A DNA stretch of 64,000 nt from Liolophura sinensis (GCF_032854445.1 NC_088295.1:77466028-77530027), one strand, 5' to 3'; positions 7,781 to 56,300 are shown, numbered from the stretch's first letter. The notes: a model not told the origin generated them from the letters alone. A program made the numbers and translations.

Positions 7781-9330
7781 ACTAGTTGATATGCAGACGG
7801 TAGACAGAGATCTGGAAGACAGAAGGTGATACACATATAGAGCTGGAAGAGGGGAGTTGATACACATAGAGCAGGAAGAGGGGAGCTGATATATACAGAG
7901 CTCAAAGAGGGAAGTGAATACATACAGAGATGGATCAGGGAAGTTGATGCACATACAACAGGAAGAGGGAAAATGCTACACACACAGCAGGAAGGGGGAA
8001 AATGCTACACTTATAGCAAGGAAAGGGAAAATGCTAAACATACAGCAGGAAGATGGAAAATATTACACATACAGCAGGAAGAGGAAAAATGCTACACATA
8101 CAGCAGGAAGATGGAAAATGTTACACATACAGCAGGAAGAGGAAAAATGCTACACATACAACAGGAAGAGGGAAAATGCTACACACACAGCAGGAAGAGG
8201 GAAAATGCTACACTTATAGCAAGGAAAGGGAAAATGCTAAACATACAGCAGGAAGATGGAAAATGCTACACATACAGCAGGAAGAGGGAAAATGCTACAC
8301 ATACAGCAGGAAGATGGAAAATGCTACACTTATAGCAAGGAAAGGGAAAATGCTAAACATACAGCAGGAAGAGGGAAAATGCTACACATACAGCAGGAAG
8401 AGGGAAAATGTTACACATACAGCAGGAAGAGGGAAAATGTTACACATACAGCAGGGAGAGGGAAAATGCTACACTTATAGCAAGGAAAGGGAAAATGCTA
8501 AACATACAGCAGGAAGATGGAAAATGCTACACATACAGCAGGAAGAGGGAAAATGCTACACATACAGCAGGAAGAGGGAAAATGTTACACATACAGCAGG
8601 AAGAGGGAAAATGCTACACATACAGCAGGAAGAGGGAAAATGTTACACATACAGCAGGAAGAGGGAAAATGCTACACTTATAGCAAGGAAGAGGGAAAAT
8701 GCTAAACATACAGCAGGAAGATGGAAAATGCTACACATACAGCAGGAAGAGGGAAAATGCTACACATACAGCAGGAAGAGGGAAAATGTTACACATACAG
8801 CAGGAAGAGGGAAAATGCTACACATACAGCAGGAAGAGGGAAAATGTTACACATACAGCAGGAAGAGGGAAAATGCTACACTTATAGCAAGGAAGAGGGA
8901 AAATGCTAAACATACAGCAGGAAGATGGAAAATGCTACACATACAGCAGGAAGAGGGAAAATGCTACACATACAGCAGGAAGAGGGAAAATGCTACACAT
9001 ACAGCAGGAAGGGGGAAAATGCTACACATACCGCAGGGAGAGGGAAAATGCTACACATAGCAAATGGAGAGGGAAAATGCTACACAGAGCGCAGGAAGCG
9101 GGAAGTTTATACACACATAGCTGTGTATGTGTGTTGATATATAGAGAGCTGGAAGAGGGAAGATCACACACAAGCGGCTGGAAGAGGGACGTTAACACAC
9201 ACAGAGCTGCAAGAGGGAAGGTAATACAGAAAGAGCTGGAGGGCAGAAGTTGATGCACTGAGAGCTGGAAGAGAGGAGGTGATATACACAGAGCTGAAAG
9301 AGGCAAGTTGATACAAACAGAGCAGCAAGA
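7780..9330. repeat. 29-bp minisatellite with degenerate flanks and higher-order structure
   Basis: The core, about 7960-9085, is roughly 38 copies of a 29-base unit built around 'gcaggaagagggaaaatgct' and 'acacatac'. A variant pair ('cttatagcaagg' followed by 'taaacatacagcaggaagatgg') recurs near 7998, 8215, 8331, 8472, 8672 and 8876, the last two 204 bases apart, so groups of seven units have been copied together. Flanks at 7780-7960 and 9085-9330 are older, diverged copies of about 30 bases. Because 29 is not divisible by 3, all three plus frames give the same repetitive peptide; the longest, 335 codons at 8053-9060, is an artefact. Confidence 0.95.
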
Positions 9331-33600: not shown

Positions 33601-36600
33601 CTTTTTTGATGACTTTATTTCAGCATCGAGAAGTAAATCCGTCGCAATAAACGACAATAAGATCATTATCACGGTTGGTTAAGGAGGATACAAAGTATTT
33701 ACATGGTGATTAATAAAACTGTTGCCGGTCGAGCCGACAGCCTGGACGGCTGCCAATTCCACATTCAACATGTAAATACGTCGTATCTTTCCAGCTCTGC
33801 CCCCTTAACCAAACATGACATCTTTCTGACCAATATTACGGCCCCGAAACATTAAGGCCTTATCTCGATGTTTTACCGGTGGATCTCTTTTGTCCAAGAC
33901 GACCAGCATGTGGACTTATCCAGGGAACATCTGTGTTTGAGTATCTCAGCCCACTGTGGCCTTCCACAGGTAGCCCATACCTGAGTCGTGAACCATTACA
34001 ATGCACTGGTCAAAACGAATGTACCCTTTAGACAGGAAAAAAAATGGAAAGTGCAAATAATCTGACCTACGGGTATTATCAAGTATGAGCATTTATACTA
34101 TTTCATGTTTGTCCTTAACTGGCTCTTCATTATACATCATTATATATGAGTTATAAAGAAATTTTTTTCCTCTAACTTGAACATTCATAAAAGAAAGATG
34201 GTGATACCCTAGTGAATCCTATAGCCCCCACGTTCTGGCTGTAAGAGGTTGTAGCACCCCCGGACCCCACCGCTCCAGAGAGTAAGCTTCCTACACCCTC
34301 AATGAAAATCCCTCTGTTCACAGCATGCGCCGGTGGCGGGGGAACGTCACTTATTCGCGCGCATGCGTAGTAATCTCCAACGGATTCAATGATGGAGGTT
34401 ATGGTCGCTGCCAACATCGCAGCAAAGCTCGCCGAGCTGATGGTTGGCATTCCCCATTGGCCTACACAAATAAACATTATAACACATGAGAATTTCTGAT
34501 TTAAGGCGACGTATAACAGGTAAACAAATTCTCGCGCATGTATAAGGTAGAAAGACTATGTAATTATTGGTTAACGTAATAACAAAACAAACTACACGAC
34601 TCTTATGTGGTCACCAAGAATTACTCACCAGTGAATAGTTATACTCAAACAAGTGTTTAATCAGTACTGAGGCGTATAAATTACGGATATAATTATTGTC
34701 AATTACTAGGGAAATACTTCCCTATGTTTCCTCGCCAAGCGGCAATTTCGCGCGCTCTCTCTCTCTCTTCACCAGTGAAAGGGAAATTTCAGAATGGTGA
34801 CAGCCTTTAAGCTTGTACCTTGAATCTTAGGGAATGCATCACAGGGCTAAAAAAAAGTTTACTACATCTTAATATTCAATCCAAGAACTGTAAGCTGTCT
34901 GGGGAAGCCCCTATTATTTTTGTTTATGTTTTGAAGGGAGTTGCTTCCTTTAGCGCTATAACTTTTATTTTTATTGTTCATGAGACACTTGCCAGGATAT
35001 GGGAAAAAGAACCATCGAGACTGTTGTAGCACGTGTTGCTTGGCATCTGTGCGTGCCATCTTCTCGGGCCCCGTGGGTAAGAATACATCATAGGAGGTGA
35101 GTATCGCACATAATCCCCATGCAATGATCACAGTCAGGATAACCTGCCAGTGTACGCAAACAACACAACCACAATTCCTAATTCATTGACCTGATTTGGC
35201 AAAGTTCCAATAAAGTATTTTCATATTAAACAGCACAAGTTAATAACTTTATTATCTTAATATGTATTTTCTGACATACATGCGTAATTCCCAAATTCGA
35301 GGTTGTCCAGGCTTGGTTGGAGTAAATTGGGAGGACAATGCATGCCTCTGGTAACCGATCTATACATGCAAATGTTTACTAAATTGGTCATATTTGGATA
35401 GTAATATACGCCATCATATAAATGATATATTTTGATTACGGCGTTAAAGCACCAATGAAAAATATTTAATGACTGGGGTGAAGAGTACTCACTTCTCTGT
35501 GTATTGTATGGAGTGAAGGCCAGCGTGTAAAATATTTTGTGCTAAACAGCTGAGGTACTAACTCTCATATATCAACCTTGCTTTCTGTCCTAAGCTATCT
35601 GGCTTGCCAGATGCTCAGCAAAAGCCCGCAGCAATACTTACCGAAAATAGTTTAAAAACTGGATAGTTAATGATATGGAGGCCTTCTTTTCTACTCCAGG
35701 CCGGTAGAGGAGGTTTAATATTACCCAGATACAGAGAGAAGACGAAAATCAGGCATACCGTCCTGTGGAGAAAACAAAACAACTCTTTATCTTTGGTCAT
35801 GCATCAAACTGTTTGTACCACGCACCTTAATTGTGCACGTATTAAGCTTGTTTCACTGTTACAATACAATTGCATAAGCATCTGTGTAGCTGCCTAGAAT
35901 ATAAAATACACATTACTAATACTGAACATATGTATATATTAGCATCTATCTACATGTATGCCTTAGCACAAACATGCATTATCATGCACAGGGACACGAT
36001 GATGTGAATAAATTATATGGCCACTGATTGAGTGGACTCTATAGGCCCGTTTACGTCGGTTGTTGTATTGACTTCCCGTGACGTCATACAGGTACGACCG
36101 TAAGTACGCATGCTTGTCGCCTTGGTTCATGTACTGTTTAATGATCGGTATTAACATTCATGCGAGTCACGAAGCACATTTTTTTTGTATTGCATTGATA
36201 CTCTGAATACTTATAAATGAGTCTTTGTGTAAAACTCCGAATAGAGCAAATTTTTCCCACACTGGACAGATAAAGCTGCCAGTGGAATGACTGATAAATA
36301 ACAAAATTGTACATGTTATAGAAAGAAACAGTCCAGAACCATGCGTATGCTTCTTGGCCTTAATGTTTAGTATGCTCATGCAAAGTTGGAAAGGTCTGTG
36401 CCCGTACAGGTAAAAAAGTTTTAACACAGGTGTACAGAAAAATGAAACTTCCTGTGACTGTTCTTCACAAAAAAAGATCTCTCGTAGTAAAATTTTCATC
36501 TGTAATTCATCACGGCGGTATCCTTCAGCTTCTCTTTTGAAAACGTTTTGCTTTAAACATTATACATCAGAATGCATGAAGGACCCTATATACTTACAGA

Positions 36601-39600
36601 GCAGCTATACCCAATTGACTTGCGCAGAAGTTCAGGGCGACGTTCACCAATGACAGGCCAACAAGGGTGATGCAGGGAATGATAGTCAATGGTCCCAAAT
36701 AGTTCAGCAGAAATCCCAGGATGCCTGTGCAACCAATGGCGACTTGCACGAGTGAGGCCAGCATAATCCCTCCCTGAATCTGAGCAACATAACTACTTTT
36801 ATCATGAGGTTATGATTGCTAAACAATGACAGTAACAAATATATATTCTTAATAAATATAAATATCATGATGGTGTTGGTTTTTATGGTGAGTATTTTAA
36901 GCCATACTCCGCAGTTTTTAAAATCGTAGAAGAGAATTGATATTGAGAACATTTTTATATAAAGTCCTGTTTTGCGAACCTTTCGCAACGAACATCATAA
37001 CATTAGCCACGTACATTAGAGTTCTATAGTTAATATGTTTTGCTAACATCAGTTTTGAAGATGCTGTCAATATCGCTGAGGCCGCCATCGCATAAGTGAG
37101 ATATTCTTGAGTACGGCGTAAAACATCAATCAAATAAATAAATCAATATCGCTGACGTCATAACTGAGCTCGTAATTCATACTGCCGTAAAAGTGACAGA
37201 GTATGTGTAATATATAAACACAACTATAAATGCATTTATTTTACATTATTGCCGTGATTATTGACCAACAGAAACGCAGAATAATTTCGTGAACATGTCT
37301 TAGTGCAAATCTTGAGAGAAAGACATCCATAAGATCTTGTGAGCATAACATAAAAAAGTTCTCGAAAGCATGACATTACAAAGGTCTTAAAATCTTCACC
37401 GAGTACAACTTAATGAAGATTTCGAGAGAACAACATGATCAAGGGCAAAACATAATTAAAATAACTCATACTTGTGTTATCCAGTTTTAACATATTTTTT
37501 AAAATCCGGTACAATGCATGGTTTACGCTTTATCAGAAGTTCAGACAGTGACAGATTTGCGTTGACATGACACTTATGATAGTTCCCAATTTTAAACCCA
37601 GAAAAAAGTAAGGATTCAATGATCTGTTGCGTCCAAACTGTTGCGTCCAAAACTGCTTCGTGGAACTGTATGCCTCCTAGTACATTTAGCCACGCCATGT
37701 GTTTTCGGGCCCTCTATACTTACATGGTGTATACATCCGATAACGGAAACAACACGTGGCAAATTATCATCAGTTAAATAAACATATCGCTGTTGATTAG
37801 ACCAGCGCCATATGTCGTCGGGCCGTCTATTCTTACATGGTGTATACACTGAAACTGACATGTTGTACGATTTCAGTGACTCTGCTCCACTTTTAGAGCT
37901 CCTACTGTTGTGTCTTCAGACTCAAGGAGCACAGCGACCTTATGACAGAGTGTCAGGTAAAACACTTATATCTCTCATCCTTGCATGTCAAACTTACCTC
38001 TGTCATTCTTTCCATGTCAGGTTAAAACAGTTACGTCTCTCATTCCCGTGTGAGGTTAAACACTTAACTCTCTCATCCTCACTTTGCAACTTCCGTCTGA
38101 GGTTAAACACTTACCTCTCTCATCCTCGCTTTGCAAACTACCATGTCGTGTAAAACACTTATTTCTCTCATCCTCGCTTGCAAAAATTCCTTGTAAGCTC
38201 TCACTTAACTTAACTCTCTCACCCTCGCTTTGCCAACTTTCATGTCAGGTAAAACACTTAGCTCTCTCATCTCGCCAACCAAACTTCCCTTTTGAGGTTA
38301 AACACTGGTTCTCTCATCCTCGCTTTGCAAACTCCCATGTCAGGTAAAACACTTACCTCTCTCGTCCTCGCCTACCAAACTTCCGTGTCAGGTAAAACAC
38401 CTACCTCTCTCATCCTCGCTTGCCAAACTTCTGTGTCGTCGTACAAGGTGACGTTCAAGTCTACTGCATCTGCTTCGGTTCCATTCCAAACGGATTTCAT
38501 CAGTTCTGGAGAAAATATTAGACACCATTGCCAGTAATTAATCACGCTTTTGTATTTTATTTACTTATTTTCTTATCTGTTGTTTTGCACAGTCCTTACG
38601 AACATTTTATTACTATTATATGGTAGCTAGGTTTATAGGTGGAGACAGCCTTGCCAAGTGCCTGACTAACTACCCTGAGATAGATCCCTACACGTTATCC
38701 TATCGGTCCCTTCGTCTGTGAAAAATCCATTACACCAGGATGACAGAGGTAAGTGTTTTACCGGACACGAAATTTTTCCCGCTTGTATGTGTACCCTAGC
38801 CCAATCGATGGCATATAAACTCATCAATGTTCAAGTCGGGTTCTCAGTGTTGTTTTTCCCAGGTGGGGGAAATCAGCCAGCTTTTGATTATTTATGAGAT
38901 TATGCTGTATCTGTGCCACGATTACAATACGGACCCTCGCCGGCTCAGTCGCGTGAAGCTTAGCCCTCTTCCCAGCTGACAAGTGACGTCGCAGACTCGA
39001 ATCCAGCTCTGGCTGGATAGGTTGAGGGGTTTATAAGTAAAGAAGCTTGCCAACTACGTTTTGAAAGGCGATTGCTTAATATGGGCTCCCTTTACTCTGG
39101 TAATCAGTAACCATTTCTTAAATAAGGCGACACCAATCAAGTAAACAAAACTCACCTTTTGGTGGACACTTCCAGACGTCAAGGGACATCAAGGCTGCGA
39201 TTGCGGGCAGGAACTTATGACAACCGCCTTGAAGGATCGGTAACCTGTTTTGCAAAAAAAAAATTAAAAATTAGAAAAGATGTAGAAGATACCTTTATTC
39301 TCGTGTTTTGATTTATTTTCATTTGCCTAACTGATGATACTTACAAAATATTTTTAATTGCTTTTAATTTGTATTCATTAACACAGGGATGGTATTAGGA
39401 GTTCTGAGACTACGCGCAGCTGAGGTCACTTTCACAAAACTTCAGTTAATTCACTTTTTTCACCGGTGCAGGCGATGTGTGGGTTACAATACTATATATT
39501 GACGTAATTTATCAGGACAGTTAGGTCAAATCGTCCTGTGAGCCCCACGTCAAAATGAGATGCGAAACAGCGTATACAGTGCGGTTACCCGAAGTGGCAC

Positions 39601-42600
39601 GTTAGATTCATCTCCGTGAAAGCCTGGGTTTGACCGTAAAGTTAAGATTCCTGTAGACTGACCTGACGCCAAGAAGATCCTGAAGCAGGGTGCAGACTCC
39701 ACACATGAACAGGAATGTGGCCATGATCTCGGCGGTGACCAGATCCAAGTGGTCAGCACACACATACCTACTGACCACCAGCGGGATAGAGATGGTAGAG
39801 CTTATACTGAGTAACACTTGCTGAAACGCAAACATAATGACCGTGACAACTGCGCCCGTGCAAGGTCAGAAAATATTTATGCCTCACTGCTACCCTGGGG
39901 ATGACCAATGCACTCTACCCTGTGAATGACCAATGCACTCTACCCTGTGAATGACCAATGCATTTCTACCCTGTGAATGAACATGCATTCTACTCTGTGA
40001 ATGACCAATGAATTCTACTCTGTTGATTAAACACAGTGGATGACATAATGCATTCTATGCTATCGATGACTAATCAGTGCATTCTACACAGTGAATGACC
40101 TTTGAAAAAAAAGGTATTGAACGTGAAATAACAATTAAACTATAATTATAACAATGCAAAAGGGACAAGCCCTCGGGGGTGCTTATCCTTCAGAAAATTC
40201 TGGTTTACGCAGGCATACACTATACAAAAGACAGCATACATAGCGTAAGACCAGAGCAGCAACGACAGTGTTACAGTTGGCAAATGCATAGTCTCGCGTC
40301 ACCCGTGAAATCTGGCCTCTCGTCAATTTACCTCAGGGTTTTAGGCCTCCTGCTTGCGCGCCAGTCGTCTCGTGTAACCAAGCAGTTGCCCAAATGAACG
40401 CTTAGCCTGTGCAATATTTTGTCAAGAAATGAAGGATTTTGTGGTTTACTGAAAGCCGGTTTTAATGGCTCGTAGTAATTGTCTGGTTGTGCAACTTATT
40501 TTTAGTAAAGCAATACATCTGGAAGTCGTTGAAACAAAAAGGATACAAACATGTAGCAACTTTATGACGCGTTATGATTTCATGCGCGGAAGGATTTACC
40601 TGGAGTCCAAATATAAATGACAAGAAGGGATGAGGTACATCGTCTAGTTTATAAATCAGCGGGGAAATGGCCGGTTTATGTGACTCCTGATAGCTGGTCG
40701 TCAATGAATCCTTCTCTAAAATACAAGATCAGTAAAATCCAAATTTGTACGGAATGCACAATTTCGATTCATAAGCTTTAACTGATGAAAACGTCATTCG
40801 TCAAATTCAGTGAAATCTACAAGTCACATGAGTACAGATTTTAAATATATAAATTAGTTGCATTTTTTTTCAACTCTATTTACAGCTATAAATCCAAAAG
40901 CGCAAACCCTTATCAAATGTGAAAGTACCGTTCTCATTCTCTCTGCTGATGGCCGGAATCTCTTCAGAGAGAAGCTGATCTTTTGTCTCTACGCCCGCTG
41001 CCCGTAACTCCATCATCCAGCTAACTCGTTCCTCTCTATCCCTTGTCATTTTCTAAGACTAAACCCTCCGGTTTTGAGAATAGCACTTGTCCGCATGAGA
41101 ATTAGTTTATCAGTATACGTGTCAGATACGCCAGTTTACACGTCCGGAGCAGTTCGACTACTGTGCATTATACAACACACGCGTGATGCTGCATTGTTTA
41201 CACGCCTATGGCTACAAAATTAGATAAATTTCCCTTTGAAAAGATCGTGAATGATACTATCTGGAATGCACAGCTGCATAGCTCAAAACTTAACTGTGCC
41301 TTTTCAACTGTTGTACAATGCAGGCGACTGATAAATTTGTACAAGTAAAACGATTTATGTATGTATATCTGGTTAGAATATAGGTAGTTATGTCACCCAT
41401 ATGTAACAAGCAGGGACAGCTCAACGGGCGATGTGACCTTCAGATGCCAACACTCCTGTGGACATTCAGGCGTTTAGGTCACCATTTAACAAGCAATTTC
41501 TGGTAAGTACTGTCGGTAAACTCAATTATTCTGTATAGTTCTACTCCTACCCTTCACGTGGTATGTACGGGTACATAGCGGTAAGAGGAAAGATCAAGGG
41601 CTGTAGTTCACTAATGGCCATTCTGATTGGTAATCATTACAGCCCATCCCACCTGGCTGCATGTGCTTCAACTGATACAGCCTGAAAGGATTTCATTAAG
41701 AAATGGTTGTATTATATCACTCTTGTGCCAAAACAACGTTCTTGACTATGTTTTGAAGTTGAAATTGTAAAAACATTACATATGGGGTGATTGAAAACTT
41801 TTTTGACCTACATTCAAATATTTGTTCTTTTTTCCTTTCACAGTAAAACTAATTTCACAATTTTCTAGCGCCACGATGATGAATCTATTTCATCGTTTTA
41901 AAATGCATAATATATAAGAATTTATCAAATTTTCAGTATATGGGCTGAGCGTATGATGGTCTTAAACATGAGTCTGAGAACAAATTTCAGCGGAATGATC
42001 ACAATAATATAAAATAATAATTATTATTCATATACCATCCGTTATGAGCTGGATATAAGACTTTAGTAAAAGTGAACAAATTGCCCATATTTATGACGTT
42101 ACCGTACAAAAGATAACGACCATGACGTAGTTATAACTGTTGTGGGAAAACACAGTTGTAGTAATATTCTAATCAATGGTATATTCCATACCTGATTCAC
42201 ATTCTATGACAGTCATATTTAAAATATTTACTTCTTAACTCGCGTGTATTTGGGTAGTAAAGTCAAGTTATTCTGTGTGATTGTGTGACGGGAAATGCAT
42301 CATATAGCATACAAGAACTGAAAGAATCCGGAACAAAACGCCCTCAAGCATAATCAGGAGGATTTACAACTCTGTGCGTTTCGACCACTTTTAACACGAG
42401 CCGAATGATGGAGCATATCCATTTGATCTGAGTATTATAACTATGTGTATAAATTGATATATTAACCCATATAAAGGACCTAGGATATTTTGTTTTAACG
42501 TAGCGCATTGTCGACGGATTTTAAAGAGATACACTCATTTAAAGTCAACAGTTAATTCTTTGTCTATTCTAAAACATGCAACAAAGTGTGGCTTAAAATA

Positions 42601-44383
42601 TTTTAATTTATTGCTTATACGTTTACTGGGTCAGTCGTGCCTATGTATATACGGGCAGGAATCCGTGACGGAGATCGCCCTGCCTCAGATTAAAATCAAG
42701 TAGTTGGACGTAAAACACACTGAAGTTTTAATCCTGGGGTCTTGCTTTGGTTTTGTGCGTGGATTATAACAGGTGCATGCTATAACCTTGTGTATGTATC
42801 ATGGCGATAAGCCATTTAGCCCATGACATGACGAATTGGTCTACTTAAAGCCTGAAGCACACATGAGAAATATAACACGGGCTTAACACTCATCTGTCAG
42901 GAGTAACACCCTCTTTACGTATCGCATGTCTATAGTGTGCCCGGATTAAGCTCAAAGAATACTTCTCCTCATGCTTTACAGGAAAGTTTTCTGTGATGTG
43001 TACGATGATCTTGACAAACTGCATTGAACCACCATGAACGGGGGAAAATGAGCAGGAAAATATACGGAGGAAAGAATGGTGGAGTTTGGCGACGACGACA
43101 ATAACGATAGACTTGACAAGACCAATCCGAAATGTATATATACACTCTAAATTTTAGTAATTTTATCCCTCTTTTCCTCAAGTTTCAGGTCATTTATATC
43201 TGGGGTCGTACTCTCAAAAATCAAATATGTACTTCTTTGTACACATCCCGTGTTCGTTTGTACGTTGTAGTGTTAACCAAGTGCATGTGTACCATCTGTA
43301 GGTACACAGTTTGGTACACATTTAGAGTGTAGTCTCCTAAGGATGCGTTATGCAATGTAAAGAATAATGTGTCAGTGCGAATTTATTACAACTAATGTGT
43401 ATCACGTAAAATGAAGACAGGCGAATAAAGCACTTCTACCTGAAACCCAAACACAAAAACACGTGTATAAAACACTTTTACCGGAAGCCCAAACATAAAA
43501 GTATGTGAATTAAACACTTCTACATGAGGCCTAAAGATGAAAACACGTGTTTAGTACACTGTTACCGAGAGCCCAAATATGAACACAAGTGTATAAAAAA
43601 GTTGTACCGAAAGCCCATATAAATGAACACCGGTGTATTTGGCGTCCGTATATGAGCATTTGTGTACATAAAACTAGAGTCCGAAGATGACGACATGTGT
43701 ATAAAACACATTCACCACGAGCTCGAAGATGAACACCGATGTATAAAACACTTTCGCCTAGAAGCCAAAGATGAATATTGGTGTATAAAACACTTTTATC
43801 TGGAGCGCGAAGATGAATTAACACAGGTGTATAAATCTTTTATCTAGAGGCTGAAGATGAAGTCAGGTATATAGAACACTTTTGCCTGGAGCGTAAAGAC
43901 TGACACAGGTGTATAAAACACTTTCACTTGGAGCCTAAAGATAAAAAAAATACGTGTACGAAACACCTTTACATAGAGCGTAAAGATTAACATAGGTGTG
44001 TAAAACACTTTTACCTGGAGCCTTAAGCTGAAGACAGACGTATAAAACACTTTTACCTGGAGCCCGAAGATGAAGCAGAGGTGTACGGGAGGGATATCGG
44101 TGAGTTTATACTCGAGTGATGTTTCACTTCCAGCCGCTGGCCGCTTCGCCATGCTATCCCCCATATCTCCGATGGATCCATTCTGTGCCCCGACTCTGAC
44201 TCTTATATCCCCTAACGCATCCTTATCAGGTGGTCGCTTCGAGAGGCTGTCTTCTCCTGTCTTTCCGATAGACCCAGTCTGTTCCCCGACACTGATCCTT
44301 GTATCCCTCAGCACATATTCATCAGCTAGTCGTTTTCCAGTCCTTCTGGCCTCGTCGTCCGTGGTGTAGCCCGCATTTTCCAT
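30348..44383 (-). CDS. SLC23-type nucleobase/ascorbate transporter, complete, with alternative N-termini
   Basis: Shared exons, phases all matching: 39663-39820, 39156-39244, 38405-38505, 36598-36779, 35642-35762, 34993-35143, 34208-34461, 32765-33038, 31898-31993, 30348-30583 (553 aa plus stop). They are preceded by either exon 1a (total about 662 aa) or exons 1b+2b (about 632 aa). Family marks: [12 protein letters not shown] and [10 protein letters not shown] (first membrane segments); WQARMRE then [69 protein letters not shown]; the NAT signature [51 protein letters not shown] near the C-terminus. SLC23 proteins are multi-pass Na+- or H+-coupled carriers of ascorbate or nucleobases; substrate cannot be assigned from this sequence. 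One intron is GC-AG (donor at 34992). Confidence 0.95.
30604..30662. repeat. (ATTT)n / (GTTT)n microsatellite
   Basis: About nine 'attt' units followed by 'gttt' units, in the last SLC23 intron. Confidence 0.9.
30812..31122. repeat. About 94-bp tandem repeat, just over three copies
   Basis: The unit contains 'gaggcgggggaatctagggt', 'caccaccagcaggacatcag' and 'ctcatttatgaggggca'. Lies in the last SLC23 intron. Confidence 0.9.
31690..31765 (-). mobile_element. SINE 3' fragment, minus
   Basis: 'tttatttatttgactggcat' followed by 'gaatatttcacttatacgat' and 'gcattatgg', then no further SINE sequence. Confidence 0.7.
32347..32551 (+). mobile_element. tRNA-derived SINE, 5' end degraded
   Basis: 'tcacaccaatgaggtgtgtc', 'ttcatgctggcttcctcgcc', 'ctcaccataatgctggccgc' and tail 'gagtacggcataaaacacc'. 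Lies in an SLC23 intron. Confidence 0.85.
33673..33813. mobile_element. MITE-like inverted-repeat element
   Basis: 'ggttggttaaggagg' with 'gtatttacatggtg' on the left is mirrored by 'caacatgtaaatac' and 'gcccccttaaccaaac' on the right. A related end ('cccttaaccaaac') is seen alone near 61667. Lies in an SLC23 intron. Confidence 0.55.
34991..34992 (-). other. GC splice donor (GC-AG intron) in SLC23
   Basis: On the minus strand the exon ends CCATATCCTG and the intron starts GCAAGTG. Joining here to the acceptor at 34461 gives the conserved FPYPGQWGMP in frame; no GT nearby does so. Apart from the GC, the donor is a strong consensus, as is usual for GC introns. Confidence 0.85.
37075..37143 (+). 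mobile_element. SINE 3' fragment
   Basis: 'gaggccgccatcgcataagt' then 'ttgagtacggcgtaaaacat' and 'caaataaataaat'; only the 3' section remains. Confidence 0.8.
37960..38452. repeat. 48-bp array made of SLC23 exon 4 end plus its 5' splice site
   Basis: On the minus strand each unit is about 33 bases of exon end (GAAGTTTGG...GATGAGAGAG) followed by 15 intron bases (GTAAGTGTTTTACCT). The true exon end (boundary 38405) is the first unit. About nine more copies follow at 48-49-base steps (near 38357, 38311, 38262, 38213, 38164, 38116, 38068, 38035, 37971), several keeping a good GTAAGT or GTAAAT-type donor. Reading on in frame past the true donor meets a stop in the first copy. Confidence 0.9.
38934..39145 (+). 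mobile_element. Possible second-type tRNA-derived SINE
   Basis: 'ggctcagtcgcgtgaagc' (A-box-like), 'gactcgaatccagctctgg' (B-box-like) and a distant 3' end 'aaggcgacaccaatcaagt', about 200 bp in all. Lies in an SLC23 intron. Confidence 0.4.
39890..40110. repeat. About 25-bp minisatellite in SLC23 intron
   Basis: Degenerate copies of 'gaatgaccaatgcactctac' plus 'cctgt', just upstream (in gene sense) of the exon starting at 39820. Confidence 0.85.
40600..41049 (-). CDS. SLC23 alternative first exons 1b and 2b (proximal)
   Basis: Exon 1b 40929-41049 starts [11 protein letters not shown] and ends in phase 1 (AAC G|GTACTT, a weak donor). Exon 2b 40600-40715 continues in phase and ends [18 protein letters not shown] with CAG|GTAAAT, again phase 0 into 39820. 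It is paralogous to the end of exon 1a, so the GLQ-ending exon has been duplicated and each copy acquired its own N-terminal tail. Confidence 0.82.
41050..43140. other. SLC23 intron 1a region, no exon seen
   Basis: Between the two alternative starts. AT-rich; no further SLC23 exon, which argues that exon 1a uses the shared body. The promoter of the proximal start should lie just right of 41049, but no clear element is seen. Confidence 0.4.
43141..43333. mobile_element. MITE-like inverted-repeat element
   Basis: 'tacactctaaatttta' at the left and 'acacatttagagtgtag' at the right are inverted copies; the interior has repeated 'gtgtacc'/'ggtacac' strings. Non-coding. Confidence 0.5.
43405..44085. 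repeat. 42-bp array made of SLC23 exon 1a end plus its 5' splice site
   Basis: On the minus strand the unit is exon end TTCATCTTCGGGCTCCAG followed by intron GTAAAAGTGTTTTATACA. The real junction (44057|44056) is the first unit; about 15 increasingly diverged copies follow at about 42-base steps to 43405. Because 42 is a multiple of 3, the frame stays open for 70 codons past the true donor, giving 14-residue repeats. Confidence 0.9.
44057..44383 (-). CDS. SLC23 alternative first exon 1a (distal)
   Basis: 109 codons from ATG at 44383: a hydrophilic cytosolic tail (starting [10 protein letters not shown]) followed by [18 protein letters not shown], the stretch that precedes membrane segment 1 in SLC23 proteins. 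It ends in phase 0 at CAG|GTAAAAG, matching the acceptor at 39820. It cannot splice to exon 2b, whose acceptor needs phase 1, so the two starts exclude each other. Its 3' end and donor are tandemly amplified in the intron. Confidence 0.85.
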
Positions 44384-44399
44384 ACCGTTACATATAACT

Positions 44400-46037
44400 A
44401 TGTAAAATAATTAACCCTAAACCGCCTTTCTGAACTCCCTGTTATCAGTGGCTTGTTGATATGTTTGCATGGCTTTATATACGGGCACTTCATATCGCAG
44501 CCCCCTCCGAAACGTCACATGGTCCCACGTGCCCTCCGTACCTTTTTGCATGTACACATACATACACAGCTGCAAGAAAAAAAAAGCCTCAGGGGGAAAG
44601 TGCATCTAGGAACAGCCTACAGAGCATGTTTTACAAAAAGTACACCGGCAACATATACAATGACTGAACCATCCATCATCCTCTAGGCGTATACAGGTAT
44701 TCATGTGAAAGAATAGTTACTGTTGCCAAACAAAGATATGTGTAGCAGTGAATGACGGTAATACTTAACATGTCACAAGCTAGGTTATACGGTAAATAGG
44801 CAGAATTATTAAAAGATAAAAGGATAAAAAGATAAAGGCCAGTATACAATCAAGTATGATTCATAACAAAATGAATAAGTTTTGAACCTATTCAAATCCT
44901 TTGTATTATTGATTCAGGTACAAAAAACACGGTATATTTTTACATACTGTACAACCTTAATCGAAGCAAATCTTTCAAACCACCCACGTGGAAATAAAAA
45001 AAGACGTTTTTCTCCTATGTCTTTGTCAAAGTCGTTAACTTCTTGTTATTTCGTATTAATTGCTGTTGTCATATTGACGGCATATTGATATAAGATAACA
45101 GCCACATTCACAGAAACTAACAGAAAACACCATGTCTAGTTGTACATTTTCGGGTTGTTGCGTGCAGGTTACATGGTGGCTTTACGCTGAGCACCATAAA
45201 TTTTTACAGCCCTTCTCAAAATCATATCGACAGACTATTGATTTCATTTTAATTTTTACACTTTTCAGGGAAGGTCATATGGAATTGATACTTTATACTA
45301 AGTTACGTTGAACAGTTGTATTCCATCCTACATAAATGAGCTGAAAGAAGGTACAGGCAGAAACCACATGTATCGGGTGCTGAACGGTCCAAGACAATGT
45401 TGATATATATATACCTTTTCCCACACCAAGGTATTTTAATATCTGGGTTAATTCTGTTCGGGTTATCTGTGGACTATATCAGGAGGAGTTAACGCATAGT
45501 TTATAGTATTATGCATTGAACTGACGTGGAGATCACTGACCTATACACCTCAACTTACAACACAAACCCCACATTGAGGCTGCTAAATTTGAACCCGCGT
45601 GTGAACTCTTGCTTCGAGAGGATTGTTCATAATCATTCACTGGAATCGTGTGGTGGGGTTGGGCGGAGGGACGGGCATGTATATACATGTGAGGAAATGG
45701 AAAAGATTATAACTGCATACTTACGAGCACGATAGATACACTGAAATACAGGCAGATATTATTGTAGTTTTTTGTTTTTGTTTTAATTATACTGTGTATA
45801 TGTATGAAGTACTGTATTTAGGTCATGAAACCAGAGTGTTTTTCGACATTTCTGCGATAGCTGCGGTCATACCATATCTTTTAGAAGGGATGCGTTTAGA
45901 GGATGGGGAACTAGCGCTCCCAATTTAGGTGACAAATTGACCTCCTGACTCACGGATGTAGCCGAACCAGTGACACATGGTCATTGCTCAGTGAATGGTG
46001 CATTTAACCTTCTGTATGTAAAACTGATTGTTTAATA
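44400..46037. other. Upstream of SLC23 exon 1a, no gene seen
   Basis: Likely holds the distal promoter of the SLC23 gene. Short ORFs only, none recognised. Confidence 0.45.
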
Positions 46038-46165
46038 TGATGTTTTACGTGGTACTCAAAGATATTTCCCCACCCGCAGTTTGATCTTCCGACCTACAAC
46101 CGGAGAGGAAGCAAGCAAGAGCTTGGACGTGAACCCCTGGGTCATTGTGCCCCAGGGTCTTTGGA
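46038..46165 (-). mobile_element. SINE fragment, minus
   Basis: 'gatgttttacgtggtactca', 'ccggagaggaagcaagcaag', 'ggacgtgaacccctgggtca': a decayed copy with an internal deletion. Confidence 0.65.
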
Positions 46166-48782
46166 CCGCACACATCACACTCTGTGCACAAGAAGCCGTA
46201 TTATTCCCCATCATCAAATTACATGGACTCAAACATTTAATCACAATGCCTATAGTTGCACCACACAAAGGCAAAGTCTGGGTATAATGTCATACCATAA
46301 AAACGTCTGTCGTCCCGCCTTTGTTTGCCGACATTCTTCTGTATTTGTGGATTTCTACGAGGCATGTATAAGAGGGAGGCTTTTCAGTTCGGATATTTAT
46401 GGCTATGCAAAAGAGCAGACTACACCATAATTGCAGTATCATGATTGTCCATAGATAAAGTTATACCATTATTCATTCATACTTCAAATGTATTATATTC
46501 TGTCTTGGTAAGGTACACAAAGGAACCAAAGAAAACTACATCGGGATATACATTAAAGTAAGGAAGTCATAGTAATATGCTGATGTCGTGCACCTATATA
46601 CAGGCTTAGAAGAAATACATAACAAGCAAAAAGTACAGGACTGTTTTGATATATCGGTAAGGATTTCACAAAGTCCTTTGACCATTCAGCATCTCTTTGA
46701 AATAACCTGACAAGTTTACCTCAGTAAATTAAGTGGCCTAGTATTGCCACCCAGCGGACAGCTTTGACCTCTCGAGTCAGACGATACCTCAAGTTTGTTT
46801 CTCTGGTAACTATTTAAAACAAAGTGTTTGCACATCGACTGCTGTTATGTTACCCGTTCAACCTACGACAAGGCCTTAAGAGCCAACAAGGCGGCAAGAC
46901 TTATATCGTGGGAAGGCAACAGCTCTCAAGTAGACGAAATACGCGCTCCTTGCACAGATTTTATACAAGATAAAATGTCCATATCGGTAAATTCGTCCGC
47001 AAGTGTATCAACGGACATGGTTCACAATGATATGACAAATAAATTTAAAACTGTAGCATACAGGCACAAAACATAACGACCACTTTCACTCTATCGCTGT
47101 GGAACACGCAAACGTACTTTAAGATACATGGGGCCTCCCCTACAACTCTTAGCCAAATGATGCAAGATGAGCTAGCATGAAGAATTTTAAAACTATGTAT
47201 TTTGATTCGATTTATGATTAACACGACTTACTGACACTGATAATACACTATGGTTCAATGCTATGAATTGACAGCCTAATTAATTAAAGTCCATGTGAAG
47301 CCAGGCAATATGAAAACGTTAATTCTGCTTTTGCTAAAATGCTGATAAAGATGTAAACGTGTTTACTATAGTCACATGTGTACCATAACAAACGCAATTC
47401 TTAGTTACTAAATATAAGCTTTTTATGACTTCAAACCCAGGCGCGTTTCTAAACTATAACGAAAAAGTGTTTAAAAATGAAACACGTATTTTTAGTGTGT
47501 AAGAGACATCTTAATCCCAGGTGTACAATACAGTTATAAACCGATATATTTTAAACTGATACATGTTTACATACGGATATTATTTTAACAGATAACTGTC
47601 GTGAACTCTTGGCATATAAGTACTACTATTTAAATTTTTATGTAAAGTGAAATTAATCTAAAAATGTCAATTCTTAAAAATATGCTCAATTTATCCGCTT
47701 AATGACATTATATTGTGATGGGGTCAGATAAAAACATGGTCAAACAAATAAATAAATATAATAAATCTACGTCATCACGTGCGTGTATCACACTTGCGTG
47801 TATCAAGATTAAACTGGAAGAATTAAAGATATTTTGTTTCCTGGCAGTTAAGACGCTGAACCATCTGCCTTATTCACTGACGTAAGTGCCTGCAAAGGTA
47901 ATATCTGTAGAGATCTGAACCCAGTGTTACACACACTCATAAATGAAGATGAAACTTTCTCTTCATTTAGCAATCTGCCCGAATCTGATTGGGTTTTGCT
48001 CGAGTCTTGTGAACGTCTCGATCACGGGATGACTGTCGATGCCACAAATGCTTCTCGACTTGTGACCTATCGTTCAAAAACAAAATTCTAATCTCTAATC
48101 TCTAGGTAGCGGTAAAAGGGAGATGGCGTTTTTTTCTTTAACTGTGCGTATTTTTAAGCAGATTCAAAAAAAAAAAGCAGAAAAAGAAACTCTGATGATC
48201 GGATTTGCTGATTATCTCGGGACCCAAGATTTTTTTCTGGGAGTTTTTCTTCGCCTGCTTGAAAAGAAAATCAAACCGAATCGTTTTTCTGGGAGTTTTT
48301 CTCTTTTTTGGAGGGAGGGGGGGGGGGGGGGGGGGGGGCGGGCTTAAAGGGGTATTTAACTTTTAAAAGATTTAGACACCAATATAACTAACAGTATTAT
48401 CGTTAATACGGATTACACTTCCTGAATATAAAATGACATCTATACCTGACCAATATAACTAACTAAAAATAAAAAAGCGTGATTCTTAGTTCACTCAAGT
48501 TTATTATTACTTGTTTACATCCGTACCCCAGTCGACTTACCCGTACCATTTGAAAATCGAATGAAGTCTTTTTACTTCTTTCCCCAGAGAATATCAATAC
48601 GTCCACGTCGATACTCTGAGTCTAGGCAATGCTTTCAAATATTTTGCATGTAACTGAACGAAGTCAACTGCTTTACACTATAGTATCACAAGAATTTAAA
48701 TCAATTTAATTTTTCGATTAAAAGTTAGAGATTAAATGTTTAGCGTACATGCAAAATATGATGTTATACATACAGTCTAACA
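46166..48782. other. Intergenic, no gene seen
   Basis: No supported exon. A long poly-G run is at about 48316-48338. Confidence 0.5.
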
Positions 48783-49045
48783 GTGAGCCGTTCGCCTAGT
48801 TCGAAGTCGGGAGACCCTGGGATCAAACCCGGGTCGGGTCATACCAAAGACTTTTTAAAAATGGAGCAGCTACATCGCTTGGTTCTCAGCACTAGGAGGT
48901 TGGAGTAATGAAACAGGACTCGTTGGCCCGGTATCAGTATAATTTGACTGCGCGGGGTGTCTGGTGTCTTTGATCTGATACTTCCGGGCGGCAGCACTTT
49001 CGCGGAATGGACTCGCCCTTTCACGAGAAGACACAATATAATTAT
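48783..49045 (+). mobile_element. Second-family tRNA-derived SINE
   Basis: Starts with a tRNA-like 5' section carrying a B-box-like 'gggatcaaacccgggtc'. The body reads 'ggcccggtatcagtataatt', 'ggggtgtctggtgtctttga', 'cttccgggcggcagcacttt' and ends 'tcacgagaagacacaat'. It does not share its body with the common SINE of this window. I recognise the general pattern as a widespread lophotrochozoan SINE type. Confidence 0.6.
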
Positions 49046-50795
49046 ACACACACATCTAATGACACCTCGTCGTCATATGACTGAAAAATAATATAATAAT
49101 AATGAATAAACCACAAGCATTACAAATATGTTATAAGGAGCATAATGTGGAAGCGTACCAGTTTGTTGGAGTTCACACAAATTACTTTCAGTCGCTGATG
49201 TAAATAAACACTGTGCGTAAAATTTTGACGAGAATCACAATCGCACTCTGATCTGAGTGTGCTTCGTACAAACCTTTCCACATGTCAGGCCATACATCCT
49301 TGTCATAATTTTGTTGACAACTGCATGACACATTATTGCTGACTTAATAAATAACATCGTAAAACTGTTTACATCTGTAGGCCTATATATAAGGATTTAT
49401 GATGCTTTGCCATTAAGTAGAGAGGCATCTGATGTCCATATGGACAGTATCCATGTTCAGATTATATACGTTTGCATCGATAAAGTTAAAGACTACCTTG
49501 ATTAATGAATTAAAACTCACATGGAAATGGAATTGGTCTTCAGTTTGTGGCGATTGGACATTGTTGTTACTGAAAATATCTTTAACATGCATTTTACTTG
49601 CATTGCACTTGTGATCATAGATCATGGCGTCGTTTTGTTCTTGTGATTGTGTTATTATTCCCTAAGATTTCGTTAAAACATCTGTTTTTCTCCCAGGGGA
49701 CGATAGGAATTTGTGGAAAGTTACAGCTTCCTAATTAAATATATTTACCAAATATTTTCATTTCCATTGATTTCCAAAAGCTTGGTTTGTCGTCAAAATA
49801 TCTCTGCGCCCATGTGAACTTTAATGCTCGAGTATGTAAGTTAAAGTTTCCAGCATTAATACAGCCTTAAGGTTATCTGTGCATAAAGTAATAACTCACC
49901 CAACTTTTCCTTACATGTAGTCCAGACCAAACCTGTAAAGTTATTTATTTATATAGGTATACAACAGAAGCTACATACGGCTACTGCGATATTCCTTTTA
50001 CCTGTGTTTACACGTGCGTGAACATGAACTGCCCCGTTTAAGATTCACCCTGCCATACGTTTTTCTATGTCCCCCCCTCCCCACCTTTCGTCTTCAGTGT
50101 ATTACCCTAATTCTTTCAATTTTTGGGACAGATATTAGTTTACGTTGAAAGTAGAATATTTCATTTCTTTACCAGCCTTTTGGAAAAGTAAAGATATGAG
50201 TATGTTGTTCATTAGATGGCCTAACCATGTTGAAAAAGATAAACTCTATTTCTGCTACAATTACATATATATTGGCTAAAATGAGCAGACCAGGTGTCAC
50301 AAAAATTAGAAGAGATGTGGTAAGCTAAAGGAGATCGTTAAAAACTCCCCACAAATAACAAATGATATTTTTTTTAGATTATATCTATAAATTAGAAAGT
50401 TTCTAAAGTGTTAGATATGTATATATTTGCAATGGTAAAGTCACATTTTCAAAATTTACTAATGTTTATGGATCTCGTCGCTGTTGGTTTCTATGGTGAA
50501 CCAATATAGAAATAGGCCCGTGACATGAACACATATTGAACACGGTAGGTTAATTATGGCCTATTCGCATATAGCTGCGACACACCAACCTCCACACAAT
50601 GCGGATTCATGTTACTGATACTTGTAGTGTTTATCTCTTAACGAGGCACTCGTTAAATAAATGACTGACAAACCGATAGATAAAGCCTCGAACGATTTGC
50701 TGCAACTAAAATCCTCACGGTGTATAAAGCTGTAGTCAGCTTATAACTAGAGGGACATGTAGTACGAGTTGACTTGCGACGGCCAGCTACTAGCT

Positions 50796-50799
<4 letters not shown>

Positions 50800-50865
<66 letters not shown>
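50800..50865. repeat. (AT)n microsatellite
   Basis: About 32 uninterrupted 'at' dinucleotides. Confidence 0.98.
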
Positions 50866-50869
<4 letters not shown>

Positions 50870-50888
50870 TAATAGTGGTTAAATTTGT

Positions 50889-51100
50889 GTATTTATTTGG
50901 TTGGTATATTTCACTTATACGATGGAGGCCAGCATTATGGTGGGAGGAAGCAGGGTAGAGCCGGGGAAACTCACGGCCATCAGCAGTTTGCTGACAGACC
51001 TTCCCACGTACGACCAAAGAGGAAGCACACATGAGCTGGACTTGAAGTTACAACGGCCACATTTGGTGAGAGCTAGAGTGCAATAGCACGCTAACCACTA
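50889..51100 (-). mobile_element. tRNA-derived SINE, minus
   Basis: 'atttatttggttggtatatt', 'gccagcattatggtgggagg', 'ccttcccacgtacgaccaaa', 'gagctggacttgaagttaca', ending 'gcacgctaaccac'; the 5' head is slightly shortened. Confidence 0.85.
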
Positions 51101-52990
51101 TTCAGGGGTCTTTCAAGCCCCAAAAGTCGTCAATGAAATGACCCTGTATATAATTTAAAAACACGCATACAGGTGCATGTATGCATTTTGTCTTAGCGCT
51201 ATATTTGATTAACAAATGCATAAACGGTTAATTATTTATTATTTATACAATTATTTAATTAATTAATTAAAAAATCACCTCCACCCTTAGCTTAATATAA
51301 TAGGCCTACTAAGAAGACTAGAGAGGTACAACCCTGTGCTACATAAAAATGTATGGCGGAATGTTGTATATTACAACAAAGTGGGTATATGTTCAAACAG
51401 TGTTTGATTGATACTAGTAATGTTTGTTACATACTGTAGATCTTTAAAACGGTTCAAGTATTTGCAGCTTACAATAAATCAACCCAAAGACTCCCAAAGA
51501 TTATCGTTATACTACACCTTGTAACCCCGGACCACATGGGAACGATAGGGGTTAACAATGTAAAATCGTGTTCAAGGGCCGAGTAAATGCCCAATGGCAT
51601 GCCCAGGGCTAAAAAAGTAAAGAAAAGAATAAATAATGAATAAAGAAAAAAGAAAAAAAAACACATTAAAATAATACAAAATTACAACAAAGAAGTTAGT
51701 TCATGCAAAGTGAACATCCCACGATAGGCATTTGCTTCCTGACATGTACATAGTTTAACTGGCACGTCAGTGTCCCAAGTAGCGCGGCTGGATGTTTTTA
51801 CTGTGCGGAGAGTTTTATTTTGTTGCAATGTTTAAGTCGTAGGATTACTTGAAACACTACTCCCCCTCCTCCGATACGGACTTAAGTGTTGAGCAAACAT
51901 AACGCATATTCTTTGCTGTCCTCGAAACTGGACTAAATATAGTAGACTACAGTAGATCTATGTCCATATTGGAAAAAGGTTAACAAACATAAAAATGTCG
52001 TGAACGGTTAACGAGTATTCCCTGTCCATTTCCGTTTATATTTTCGTTCTTACTTTTTACATCTCCCCGACACTCTACTTAAGATTACCTTGGGTAAAGT
52101 TGTACAAGAAAGTGACCTCTGCAGTAACTGATGTGTTAAAAAGAACAGTAACTTGCGTTAAGACATATGCGATTTTTTTTTCTGCAAACCAGTGCATCTT
52201 AAGAATTTGTGAAACACTACTGGGATATAAACTAACGACGTAACTAAGGAATCCACATAAGACACGAAACTGTCGAACGACACAGGGTACGCATCACGAA
52301 ATCACGTGGTTGCCGATTACCAGTCATGTGATGTTTTTTTTCCTAAGTATGTCATACAACTGAATGAAATTCATGGGTTGTCGAACTTACCACTATATGT
52401 ACTAGGGTATCGGTAAGTTGAAAGTTGTTTAAAACATGCCGTCAGTGGAGAGTTAAGAGTGAGCGTATTGTCTTCGTCTCATGGTTGAACCACCGATGGC
52501 TAGTGTGGATGCACTGGTAGCTCGAGCTGGGTTAACGATTACGTGCAGGCCGATCTACGATGTAGTTCATTCACGTTAAACTGCACACTACAATAATATG
52601 CATGCGTATCAACTGTCGACGTTGACGTTGCATGACATATTTCCTAACTTGAAATTTTAAATAGGACTTTTAATAGATCCAATCTCCTACATTAAGGGAT
52701 GGAGGTTTAAACCTCCGTGATTAAGGCTCTAGGCTACATCAAATAATGCACCTTAGTTATCACAGAAATTGTAATGTTTAAACACGGGTTGGAGTTTTGG
52801 TCAGATGATAGCAGATACCTCAAGGTATGTGCAAACACACAGAAAAATCTGAACATATCACCGTGTTTTTTTTTTATACACAAGTTACTTGTGCCTCATA
52901 TTGCCATATTGCCTCATATTGTCAGTGATTCGTTGTGCTGTACTTCCTTGTGTCAGCAAAGTAAGTTGTAGATGCGATGTTGGAAGGGTA
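51101..52990. other. Intergenic / upstream of sulfatase, no gene seen
   Basis: No exon supported. May contain the sulfatase promoter and a non-coding first exon, since an acceptor at 53316 precedes the start codon. Confidence 0.4.
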
Positions 52991-52996
52991 ATGAGG

Positions 52997-53134
52997 GTGA
53001 CCCAAGCAGGTAGTCTGGATAGAGAGTATACTGACCCAGGCAGATAATCTTGATAGAGTCTATTGACCCAGGCCGGTAGTCTGGATAGAGAGTATTCTGA
53101 CCCAAGCAGGTAGTCTGGATAGAGAGTATATTAT
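52997..53134. repeat. About 34-39-bp tandem repeat, four copies
   Basis: The unit is 'gacccaagcaggtagtctgg' plus 'atagagagtat'. It lies just upstream of the sulfatase coding start; each unit contains a 'cag|gtagt' string. Confidence 0.85.
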
Positions 53135-53338
53135 GTGACCAACAGGTAAATTAATGCCACACCTTATGTGTTGGGTTTTCCACCTTGTGGTGAATGTGGA
53201 TGATGAGTGTGTTGTTTCTGGTTTGCTTCTTATGTGAAATTTACATGATCTTGCAATTTATCCTTAGCTGTGTAAAATGGATTAAATATATATCCCCATT
53301 TTCTTGTTTTTTGCAGGCAATAGTGGCATTCCATCATT

Positions 53339-56300
53339 ATGAAGGGGACTTTCTTCTCGGGCCCTTTTGTCTTGATACTAGTCCATTTGTCATCACAAGC
53401 ATCCAGGCCACATATAATATTTATTGTTGCTGATGATTTGGTAAGACTTCAGGGCTCAGTTTTTCCAAAGGGTATTTGAACTTGAGCTCAGTATTAACTT
53501 TAGTTTAGACCTAAATATCATTGATTTTGCACTTTGCAGCTTTAGACTTTTTTTTTTTTTTTTTGGACAAATGACTGTGTACCTGAAACCGCTTTCCTTT
53601 TTTATTTTTATTTTCATCGTTTGTTACAGGGTTGGAATGACGTCAGTTTCCATGGTTCTTCCCAGATCCCTACCCCCAACATAGACAAACTGGCATATAA
53701 TGGCATCATCCTGAACAATTACTATGTGTCACCTATCTGTACACCAACCAGGAGTGCTATCATGACCGGCAAACACCCAATACACACAGGTCAGTGTTCT
53801 CATCATGACAAACACACACCACAAACAGGTCAGTGTTCTCAGAATGACACATGATGCACTCAGGTCAGTTTTCTCACTTTGGCAGACCAACATCTTGTAC
53901 GCACGGATCAGTTTTCTCACTGTGGCATACAGAGACCCAATACACACAGGTCAATATTCTCACTATGACACACAAATAGACACCCTACATGTATGCACAC
54001 AGGTCTGTCTTCTTGCTATGACAGACATCCTGTACACACGTCCATGTTCTCACTGTGACAGGTAGACACCAGGTATACACAGGTCATTGTTCTCACTGTG
54101 CCAGGTAGATACCAGATACACACGACAGATTTTTCGCTGTGACTAGTAGACACAAGGTATACACAGGTTGGTGTTCTCGCATTCCTGGCAATGTTGTGGA
54201 CTGCTTCTGATTCTGATTATGTTGTGGACTGTATCTTTTCCTGATAATGTTGTGGACTGTATCTTTTCCTGATAATGTTGTGGACTGTATCTTTTCCTCA
54301 GGTTTACAGCACAGTGTCATTGTTGGCTCTCAGCCGTATGGACTACCCCTAAATGAGACAATCATGCCACAGTACCTCAAACAACTTGGTTACACCTCAC
54401 ACATCGTGGGAAAGGTGAGCTATCCTGTGATAAATTTAGCATATCTGTGATAATCGATTATCACATTTTCTTAAGTATATGTACACGAAAAATGAAAGTG
54501 AAAGTTTGAAGACGGTGTTGAAAGACAACGATGTAAGAAAGAGGATTTCTTTTGGTGTCTCTCACACAAACACTTATATGCAGCACTGTTCATTCTTGAA
54601 AAAAGGGGAATCCACCAAAAAGGGGAATCCCAGTGTTTCATACAATATGTAATGTGTTTATACGTCACAGTAGTACCACAACAGCTTCAGTAGCTACATG
54701 TAGGTGCACAGTGTTTAAAGTAGACATAATTATAATTGTTTTGTTTTTATGCTACATTATTATGACTGCGATATGTAAATGGATTACAATACCACATTTC
54801 CTCTAAAAACCCACACATACAACTTTATAATGTATGAATATACATTAGTTGATTTATATCATGCAGGAACTCCTTCAGAAAGCACATGTATTGAAATTTT
54901 TAAAGACTAACGAAACTTCCGTGGCCCATTTGCCTAGAGAGGGGCCATAATCTTTTAGTACAATAGCCACACCCTTCTTATTAAAAACCAGCTTAAGCTG
55001 GCTCAGCTGTCACTTTATGTCGGGGCCTCCGTGGCTCAGTCGGTTAGCGCGCTAGCGCAGCGTAGTGACCCAGAAGCCTCTCACCAATGCGGTCGCTGTG
55101 AGTTCAAGACCAGCTCATGCTGGCTTCCTCTCCGGCCGTACGTGGGAAGGTCTGCCAGCAACCTGCGGATGGTCGTGGGTTTCCGCCGGGCTCTGCCCGG
55201 TTTCCACCCACCATAATGCTGGCCGCCGTCGTATAAGTGAAATATTCTTGAGTACGGCGTAAAACACCAATCAAAAAAAAAAAAAAAAAAATCAATTTAT
55301 GTCAGTGTGTGTCTGTAGTATGTTGCATAGGTCAGAGTGTTATACAAGGCCTTGCACTTTTTTCCAGTCCTACACTTGATTACCATTGCCTAGTTGAAAT
55401 ATTCTTGAATGCAGAGTAAAATTCCCCGTACAGTATGTTTGGTGTTGAATGTTGTATATATCCACCATATGATGTAACAGGTTGAGGTATAGATGAGCTC
55501 ACCTTTTCACACCTGGTGGCAGTTAGGTTGAGGAATTAGGGTATGTGCTGTGTGATTTGCCTGATTTCTGCTTTGTTTAGGGCTGAAGGGATGGTTATTT
55601 AGTTAATTTTAATGTGTTTGATTTCCAGTGGCATTTAGGCTTCATGAGCAAGAACTACACGCCGACGTACCGAGGATTTGATTCACACTTTGGGTACTGG
55701 CTGGGGGAAGAGGATTATTATGATCACACTTCTGAGGCAGATTATGTAAGTAGGTGTCCTCAGCAAATGGGATGTATAAGTAACCCACATTGCTGACAGT
55801 GCTAAGAAAATTCTTTGTGTACATCTTAACACCTTTGAAGTTAAGGTATCTGCCGACATGAACAGGAGGCCTTGTTAATGGTTATTATGATAGATTATAC
55901 CAGGGGCCTCCATGGCAGAGGGGGTTAGCACACCAGCACGGTGCAATGTCCCAGGAGCCTCTCACCAATGCTGTCTGTGTGAGTTCAAGTCCAGTTCAGA
56001 CTGGCTTTCTGTGGATGGTCGTGGGTTTCCCCTCGGCTCTGCGAAGTTTCCTTCCACCATAATGCTGGCCACCGTCATATAAGTTGAATTAAGTCCGGCA
56101 TAAAACACCAATATATAAAAGATAAAATAAATAGATTATACCAGGGCATTATTTTATTTTAATATCTGCTCTTCAGAAGTTTTTTAAAAGTTTGAGTGAT
56201 GTCACGATGACTGATGATCATTTGATGATGGTGTTTTAGGGAGCCTGGGGCCTGGACTTTCGCAGGAACATGGATGTGGTCAGGAACGCCACAGGTCAAT

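Follow-up and report, generated by a model that had tools for sequence, protein, structure and literature searches.

Mirage-type minisatellites at exon-intron junctions in the chiton Liolophura sinensis

Results and Discussion

Minisatellites at splice junctions of an SLC23 gene and a sulfatase gene

The window analyzed here is a 64,000-nucleotide stretch of the genome of the chiton Liolophura sinensis (C1:77466028-77530027), which contains an SLC23 gene on the minus strand and an arylsulfatase-B-like gene on the plus strand. The assembly, first published as Liolophura japonica with 28,010 protein-coding genes (PMC11068029), was later corrected to L. sinensis (PMC12441733); the genome searched comprises 609,464,459 bases in 632 contigs. 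Three tandem arrays, A and B in the SLC23 gene and C in the sulfatase gene, are detected unprompted by Tandem Repeats Finder, and each begins with the authentic exon-intron junction as its first unit. An initial annotation of the window had reported three such arrays among about 20 internal junctions; all three lie where it placed them, with their junctions now fixed by homology. Seven introns of the window were placed by homology. Throughout, junctions were set by homology and a weight matrix in a single assembly.

The SLC23 gene has exon 1 at 44057-44383 (codons 1-109, ending ...CFIFGLQ|), exon 2 at 39663-39820 (QVLLSISS...LLGV, beginning at the junction), exon 3 at 39156-39244 (placed by homology), exon 4 at 38405-38505 (ending ...VWQARMRE|) and exon 5 at 36598-36779 (beginning IQGGIMLAS...). 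The spliced protein aligns without gaps to SLC23A1 (8jew/7ytw; E 2e-40) through both array-bearing junctions, with IFGLQ|QVLL matching LLGFQ|HYLT and MRE|IQGGIM matching IRE|VQGAIM. Array B (43423-44079, minus strand) consists of 42-bp units that run from exon 1 into intron 1 across the authentic donor 44057|44056, ATCTTCGGGCTCCAG|GTAAAAGTGTTTTATAC, each unit combining about 16-23 nt of the exon end with the start of the intron. Cut at the donor, its copies read CATCTTCGGGCTCCAG|GTAAAAGTGTTTTATACGTCTGTCTT, then CAGCTTAAGGCTCCAG|GTAAAAGTGTTTTACAC, with more following. When array B was used as a DNA query of the genome, no further copies were found; it is therefore not a dispersed repeat family. 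Array A (37964-38431, minus strand) has units of about 48 bp, 24 nt of exon and 24 nt of intron, across the exon 4 donor 38405|38404, GCGAGGATGAGAGAG|GTAGGTGTTTTACC; its copies begin GTTTGGCAAGCGAGGATGAGAGAG|GTAGGTGTTTTACCTGACACGGAA, followed by GTTTGGTAGGCGAGGACGAGAGAG|GTAAGTGTTTTACCTGACATGGGA and others.

A lone inverted copy of the junction unit of array A lies in intron 3 (38736-38776, plus strand; 87.5% identity over 40 bp). Its closest match is the authentic junction copy of the array, and the sequence suggests a template switch or an inverted duplication. The string gtgttttac/t, which occurs in units of both arrays, had been singled out in the initial annotation as a meaningful shared feature (gtgttttac/gtgttttat). 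This could not be upheld: the local score has a shuffle P of 0.03, and the string is also present in the window outside the arrays, including in copies resembling short interspersed elements (SINEs). Copies of a tRNA-like SINE at about 55020-55285 and 55900-56115 end in ...ATATTCTTGAGTACGGCGTAAAACACCAAT, and their tails hold the string in question.

In the sulfatase gene, the exon at 53630-53789 (plus strand, ending ...MTGKHPIHT(G)|) is followed by the exon at 54302-54414 ((G)LQHSVIV...IVGK). The spliced product aligns to N-acetylgalactosamine-4-sulfatase (1fsu; E 5e-54) without a gap through this junction (KHPIHT|GLQH against RYQIRTGLQH). Array C (53770 to about 54173, plus strand) is built of 39-43-bp units across the donor 53789|53790, CACCCAATACACACAG|GTCAGTGTTCTCA; its copies, cut at the donor, read CACCCAATACACACAG|GTCAGTGTTCTCATCATG, then ACCACAAACAG|GTCAGTGTTCTCAGAATG, and continue beyond. 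An unrelated 28-bp array of 4.2 copies (54182-54298, plus strand) adjoins the acceptor, with its last unit forming the polypyrimidine tract, and stops 3 nt short of the acceptor 54301|54302. Together, the two arrays make up nearly all of the 512-bp intron (intron C), which has AG|GT at both ends. Another array, of 34-bp units TGACCCAAGCAGGTAGTCTGGATAGAGAGTATAC, is located about 190 bp upstream of the first coding exon of this gene (52998-53130, plus strand). CAAGCAG|GTAGTC and the terminal CAACAG|GTAAAT in this array could be donors of a 5' untranslated region, so that it may be a fourth case of a junction array.

In arrays A, B and C, conserved protein is encoded by the exon part of each unit; the intronic copies thus derive from the exon rather than the reverse. 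Since the units also include intron sequence past the donor, the intron predates the amplification.

Recurrence at other genes

Sulfatase, SLC23 and myosin-head exons were located across the genome with Pfam models; the 90 further loci obtained were merged into 63 regions totaling 244 kb. Junction arrays recur in all three families. Four are in myosin genes, with units of 31 bp in L072 (AACTACCTCACACAG|GTGAGTCTGAGCTTGT, at least 17 copies), 66 bp in L079, about 140 bp in L075 (including more than 60 nt of exon) and 32 bp in L087; an SLC23 gene (L034) has a 65-bp unit, and two sister sulfatase genes (L023 and L029) have a 26-bp unit. The array at locus L048, which falls under the threshold, appears to be a donor-spanning array that is old and has diverged. 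Acceptors are also involved: a 76-bp unit in L019/L021 carries about 34 nt of a sulfatase exon start (acceptor 1503, gene orientation), and a 32-bp unit in L081 carries 9 nt of a myosin exon start (acceptor 697). Both the 5' and the 3' boundaries of introns are affected. The units of the two SLC23 arrays of the window are multiples of three in length (48 and 42), a property that is not general, as units of 26, 31, 32, 65 and 140 bp are found elsewhere. Large minisatellites away from recognized junctions are also present in the window, at 7833-9330, 27896-29918 and 57152-58204, with units of 29, 32 and 57 bp.

The sulfatase paralogues differ at the same junction in copy number as well as in unit, which is 26 bp in the sister genes and 39-43 bp in the window gene. 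This difference suggests either that arrays were born more than once at this junction or that an array re-expanded with different boundaries. The intron is located at IHT G| in four genes of contig C1 (L025, L012, L023 and L029), 10 nt downstream of its position, GKYQ|IHTG, in the paralogues of contig C13 (L013, L014, L017 and L018). The human ARSB intron is at the latter position as well. Three of these four C1 genes carry an array at the shifted junction; since L012 has the shift without an array, the link between array and shift is only suggestive.

Excess of arrays at donor sites

The initial annotation had proposed that arrays are born recurrently at junctions, and that this could be examined by aligning the sequence around each donor to the adjoining intron, with intronic positions as controls. 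We performed this test on the sampled donors. The best GT in the vicinity of an exon end was called as the donor. An anchor of 30 bases spanning it (-14 to +16) was aligned to the 250 bases on either side, and the anchor counted as a first unit if a strong copy lay downstream but no copy lay upstream. After two sulfatase donor picks that fell on the second repeat had been reassigned, 8 of 94 donors were first units. Removal of the non-independent cases (the window gene and one of the two sister paralogues) left 6 of 92, compared to 1.24 expected from a region-matched permutation (P = 0.001). Intronic anchors from the same regions were first units in 89 of 7,133 cases (1.2%). GC content was rejected as the source of the excess, as the GC-matched expectation is still 1.25. 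The profile peaks at the donor: first units number 1/94 at an offset of -45, 8/94 at 0 and 9/94 at +15, and between 0 and 5 deeper in the intron, while the 5' edges of arrays peak between 0 and +15. The proposal of recurrent birth is borne out for donors. Acceptors subjected to the same test gave 3 last units among 98, two of them in paralogues, against a control of 1.7%, and show no excess.

The genome was also searched for three CAGGTRAGT motifs in tandem with a unit of 21-50 bp. There are 928 such triples; the reversed motif gives 238, the swapped motif CAGTGRAGT 144 and the reverse of the latter 223, which amounts to a four- to sixfold excess of the donor motif over the controls. The corresponding single sites number 19,957, 7,605, 13,902 and 10,336. 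A count of distinct arrays over the initial 18.84 Mb of C1 gave 14 for the donor motif, 3 for the reversed and 2 for the swapped one (P = 0.003, allowing for site frequency). Six donor-motif arrays were fetched by position, and three of them begin at an exon end. One (L092) starts at the donor that closes an exon of the Fe-hydrogenase family, ...FVEVMACPS|G (PF02906, E 1.5e-12; the alignment reaches the junction), in a gene that is probably CIAO3/NARFL, and leads into an array spanning about 3.6 kb. For another (L096), the starting point is the donor of an exon of RPC1 from RNA polymerase III (...DKYMRAKIEP|; E 3e-8), and the unit includes 31 nt of that exon. The third (L093) starts at the end of an open-frame exon for which no database match was found.

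These results make a donor-specific bias in the birth of arrays probable, on a modest sample, if the excess of first units is taken to reflect birth. In a stronger form, donors would be hot spots at which tandem duplications are born, in this lineage, about five times as often as in the rest of the intronic DNA, and some 5-9% of donors would now seed a minisatellite; we put this forward tentatively, at slightly less than even odds. The most serious alternative is that there is no bias at all: in a genome rich in minisatellites, duplications would arise everywhere, and those spanning donors would persist unseen by selection. This would fit the overall coverage, since about 11% of intronic anchors lie within arrays and donors are covered about equally (8-9%), and the sample is small. 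However, the proper null for arrays seeded by a junction is the first-unit rate of 1.2%, while 6.5-8.5% was observed, and the genome-wide excess of donor-motif arrays over composition-matched controls also weighs against an absence of bias. We consider this alternative unlikely, but it is the one to be taken most seriously.

A model for intron growth and its alternatives

The arrays are best explained as minisatellites of the type described in amphioxus as "mirages", which lengthen introns (probability about 0.85). In this model, a tandem duplication would arise with its ends flanking a splice junction, usually a donor. The duplicated segment would take in 10-80 nt on the intron side and from about 10 to more than 60 nt on the exon side. 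Its upstream copy would remain on the exon and still function, and the new copy, with its piece of exon and its extra donor, would be wholly intronic. Unequal exchange or, presumably, slippage would then amplify the unit to between 2 and about 90 copies (the upper figure is estimated from span divided by unit length). The copies would drift neutrally, so that introns lengthen while the mRNA is unchanged. Provided that splicing uses the most upstream donor, a duplication spanning a donor should be nearly neutral, because exon and donor are untouched and the rest is added to the intron. For an acceptor, the last copy would have to serve as the splice site, and such duplications may be less tolerated, with which the lower acceptor count is in line. 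Growth of existing introns, as the initial annotation had envisaged, is supported by intron C, which is nearly all repeat, and by the array of about 3.6 kb at L092.

Several points weigh against this reading. The exclusive use of the most upstream donor is argued by analogy with human F7 (PMC6627357). The donors were located by the ends of hidden Markov model matches and the weight matrix, not by transcripts; there are only 94 of them, from three gene families (myosin, SLC23 and sulfatase), and a single myosin gene supplies two of the first-unit donors. Counted per solitary site, the donor motif is in arrays in 13% of cases, against 4-7% for the controls (first hundred places; Fisher P = 0.057), and owing to this weaker excess the motif test supports the reading but does not settle it. 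Among the six arrays fetched by position, L094 is at no visible exon, and L095 and L097 are undecided.

The initial annotation had also raised the possibility that the arrays were left over from, or arose alongside, the creation of introns, in which a stretch of exon with AG|GT is duplicated in tandem (the Rogers model). The position of the C1 sulfatase intron, 10 nt downstream of the C13 site and with AG|GT at both ends, speaks in favor of such an origin. However, the similarity expected between intron start and next exon start, and between exon end and intron end, is absent in array B (P = 0.27 and 0.92) and array A (P = 0.60 and 0.85) and marginal in array C (P = 0.05 and 0.24), and the units hold intron sequence after the donor, which indicates that the junction was already in existence. 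Creation of introns is thus an improbable source of these arrays.

Selection for the extra donors as spare splice sites or as sites of U1 recruitment appears more improbable still. Many copies do have a strong donor consensus, and GT is kept by 17 of 17 copies in L072; but only 2 of 8 copies of array A retain it, and over eight arrays the GT columns are no better kept (0.858) than other columns (0.849), so that the additional donor sites behave like neutral sequence. That intronic minisatellites merely happen to begin beside exons, as the arrays of L085 (myosin) and L058 (SLC23) do, starting just within the intron and containing no exon sequence, is refuted for the nine arrays whose units each hold 14 to more than 60 nt of conserved exon end (A, B, C, L072, L079, L075, L034, L092 and L096).

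Relation to known systems

Repeats of this kind are not undescribed, as had been proposed. Amphioxus mirages are minisatellite-like repeats over exon-intron boundaries, known from Adh3, the globins BflGb6 and BflGb9, troponin C and PGBD5 (PMC3087553, PMC3902484). As in the chiton, they affect the 5' or the 3' boundary, the authentic junction is at the edge of the cluster, and AG/GT is kept in many copies; unit sizes overlap as well (10-72 bp in Adh3 and 150-160 bp in the globins) (PMC3087553, PMC3902484). The chiton units likewise carry both exon and intron sequence across the boundary, with the authentic junction as the edge unit of the cluster. The amphioxus work, which already proposed mirages as feed for intron gain (PMC3087553, PMC3902484), proceeded gene by gene with reverse-transcription PCR and haplotype instability, whereas the chiton arrays occur in numerous genes that are unrelated to each other, and their excess at donors has been measured, from the sequence of one assembly alone.

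In human, intron 7 of the factor VII gene (IVS7) contains 37-bp repeats with the donor in the first, and the most upstream 5' splice site alone is normally used (PMC6627357). It is a single locus, not presented as a genome-wide process, whereas the chiton arrays recur across genes. Human genes in segmental duplications have internal tandem repeats at exon-intron boundaries, where minisatellite expansion alters introns, as in the chiton (PMC2812944). However, these repeats mostly modify exons or make new introns with alternative transcripts, while in the chiton it is introns already present that grow, with no change to the coding sequence. Intron gain by AGGT duplication (Rogers; Hellsten et al. 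2011, reviewed in PMC3443670) shares with the chiton arrays a tandem duplication at an AG|GT junction, but makes a new intron from an exon (PMC3443670), whereas in the chiton a pre-existing junction is duplicated and its intron enlarged. No mollusc report and no genome-wide estimate of enrichment were found in the literature searched, with most subscription papers outside the search.

The chiton arrays belong to a known kind, the mirages, which here can be counted across a genome. The frequency with which introns grow by copying their own junctions, the preference for donors and the neutrality of the extra donors all become accessible to genome-wide counting. If the donor excess holds genome-wide, it would point to mutation by a process that is coupled to transcription or splicing, and would provide a datable mechanism of intron lengthening in animals. 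If donors are indeed hot spots, junction-born arrays would represent a standing, transcription- or splicing-linked lengthening of introns, accompanied by occasional small shifts in intron position.
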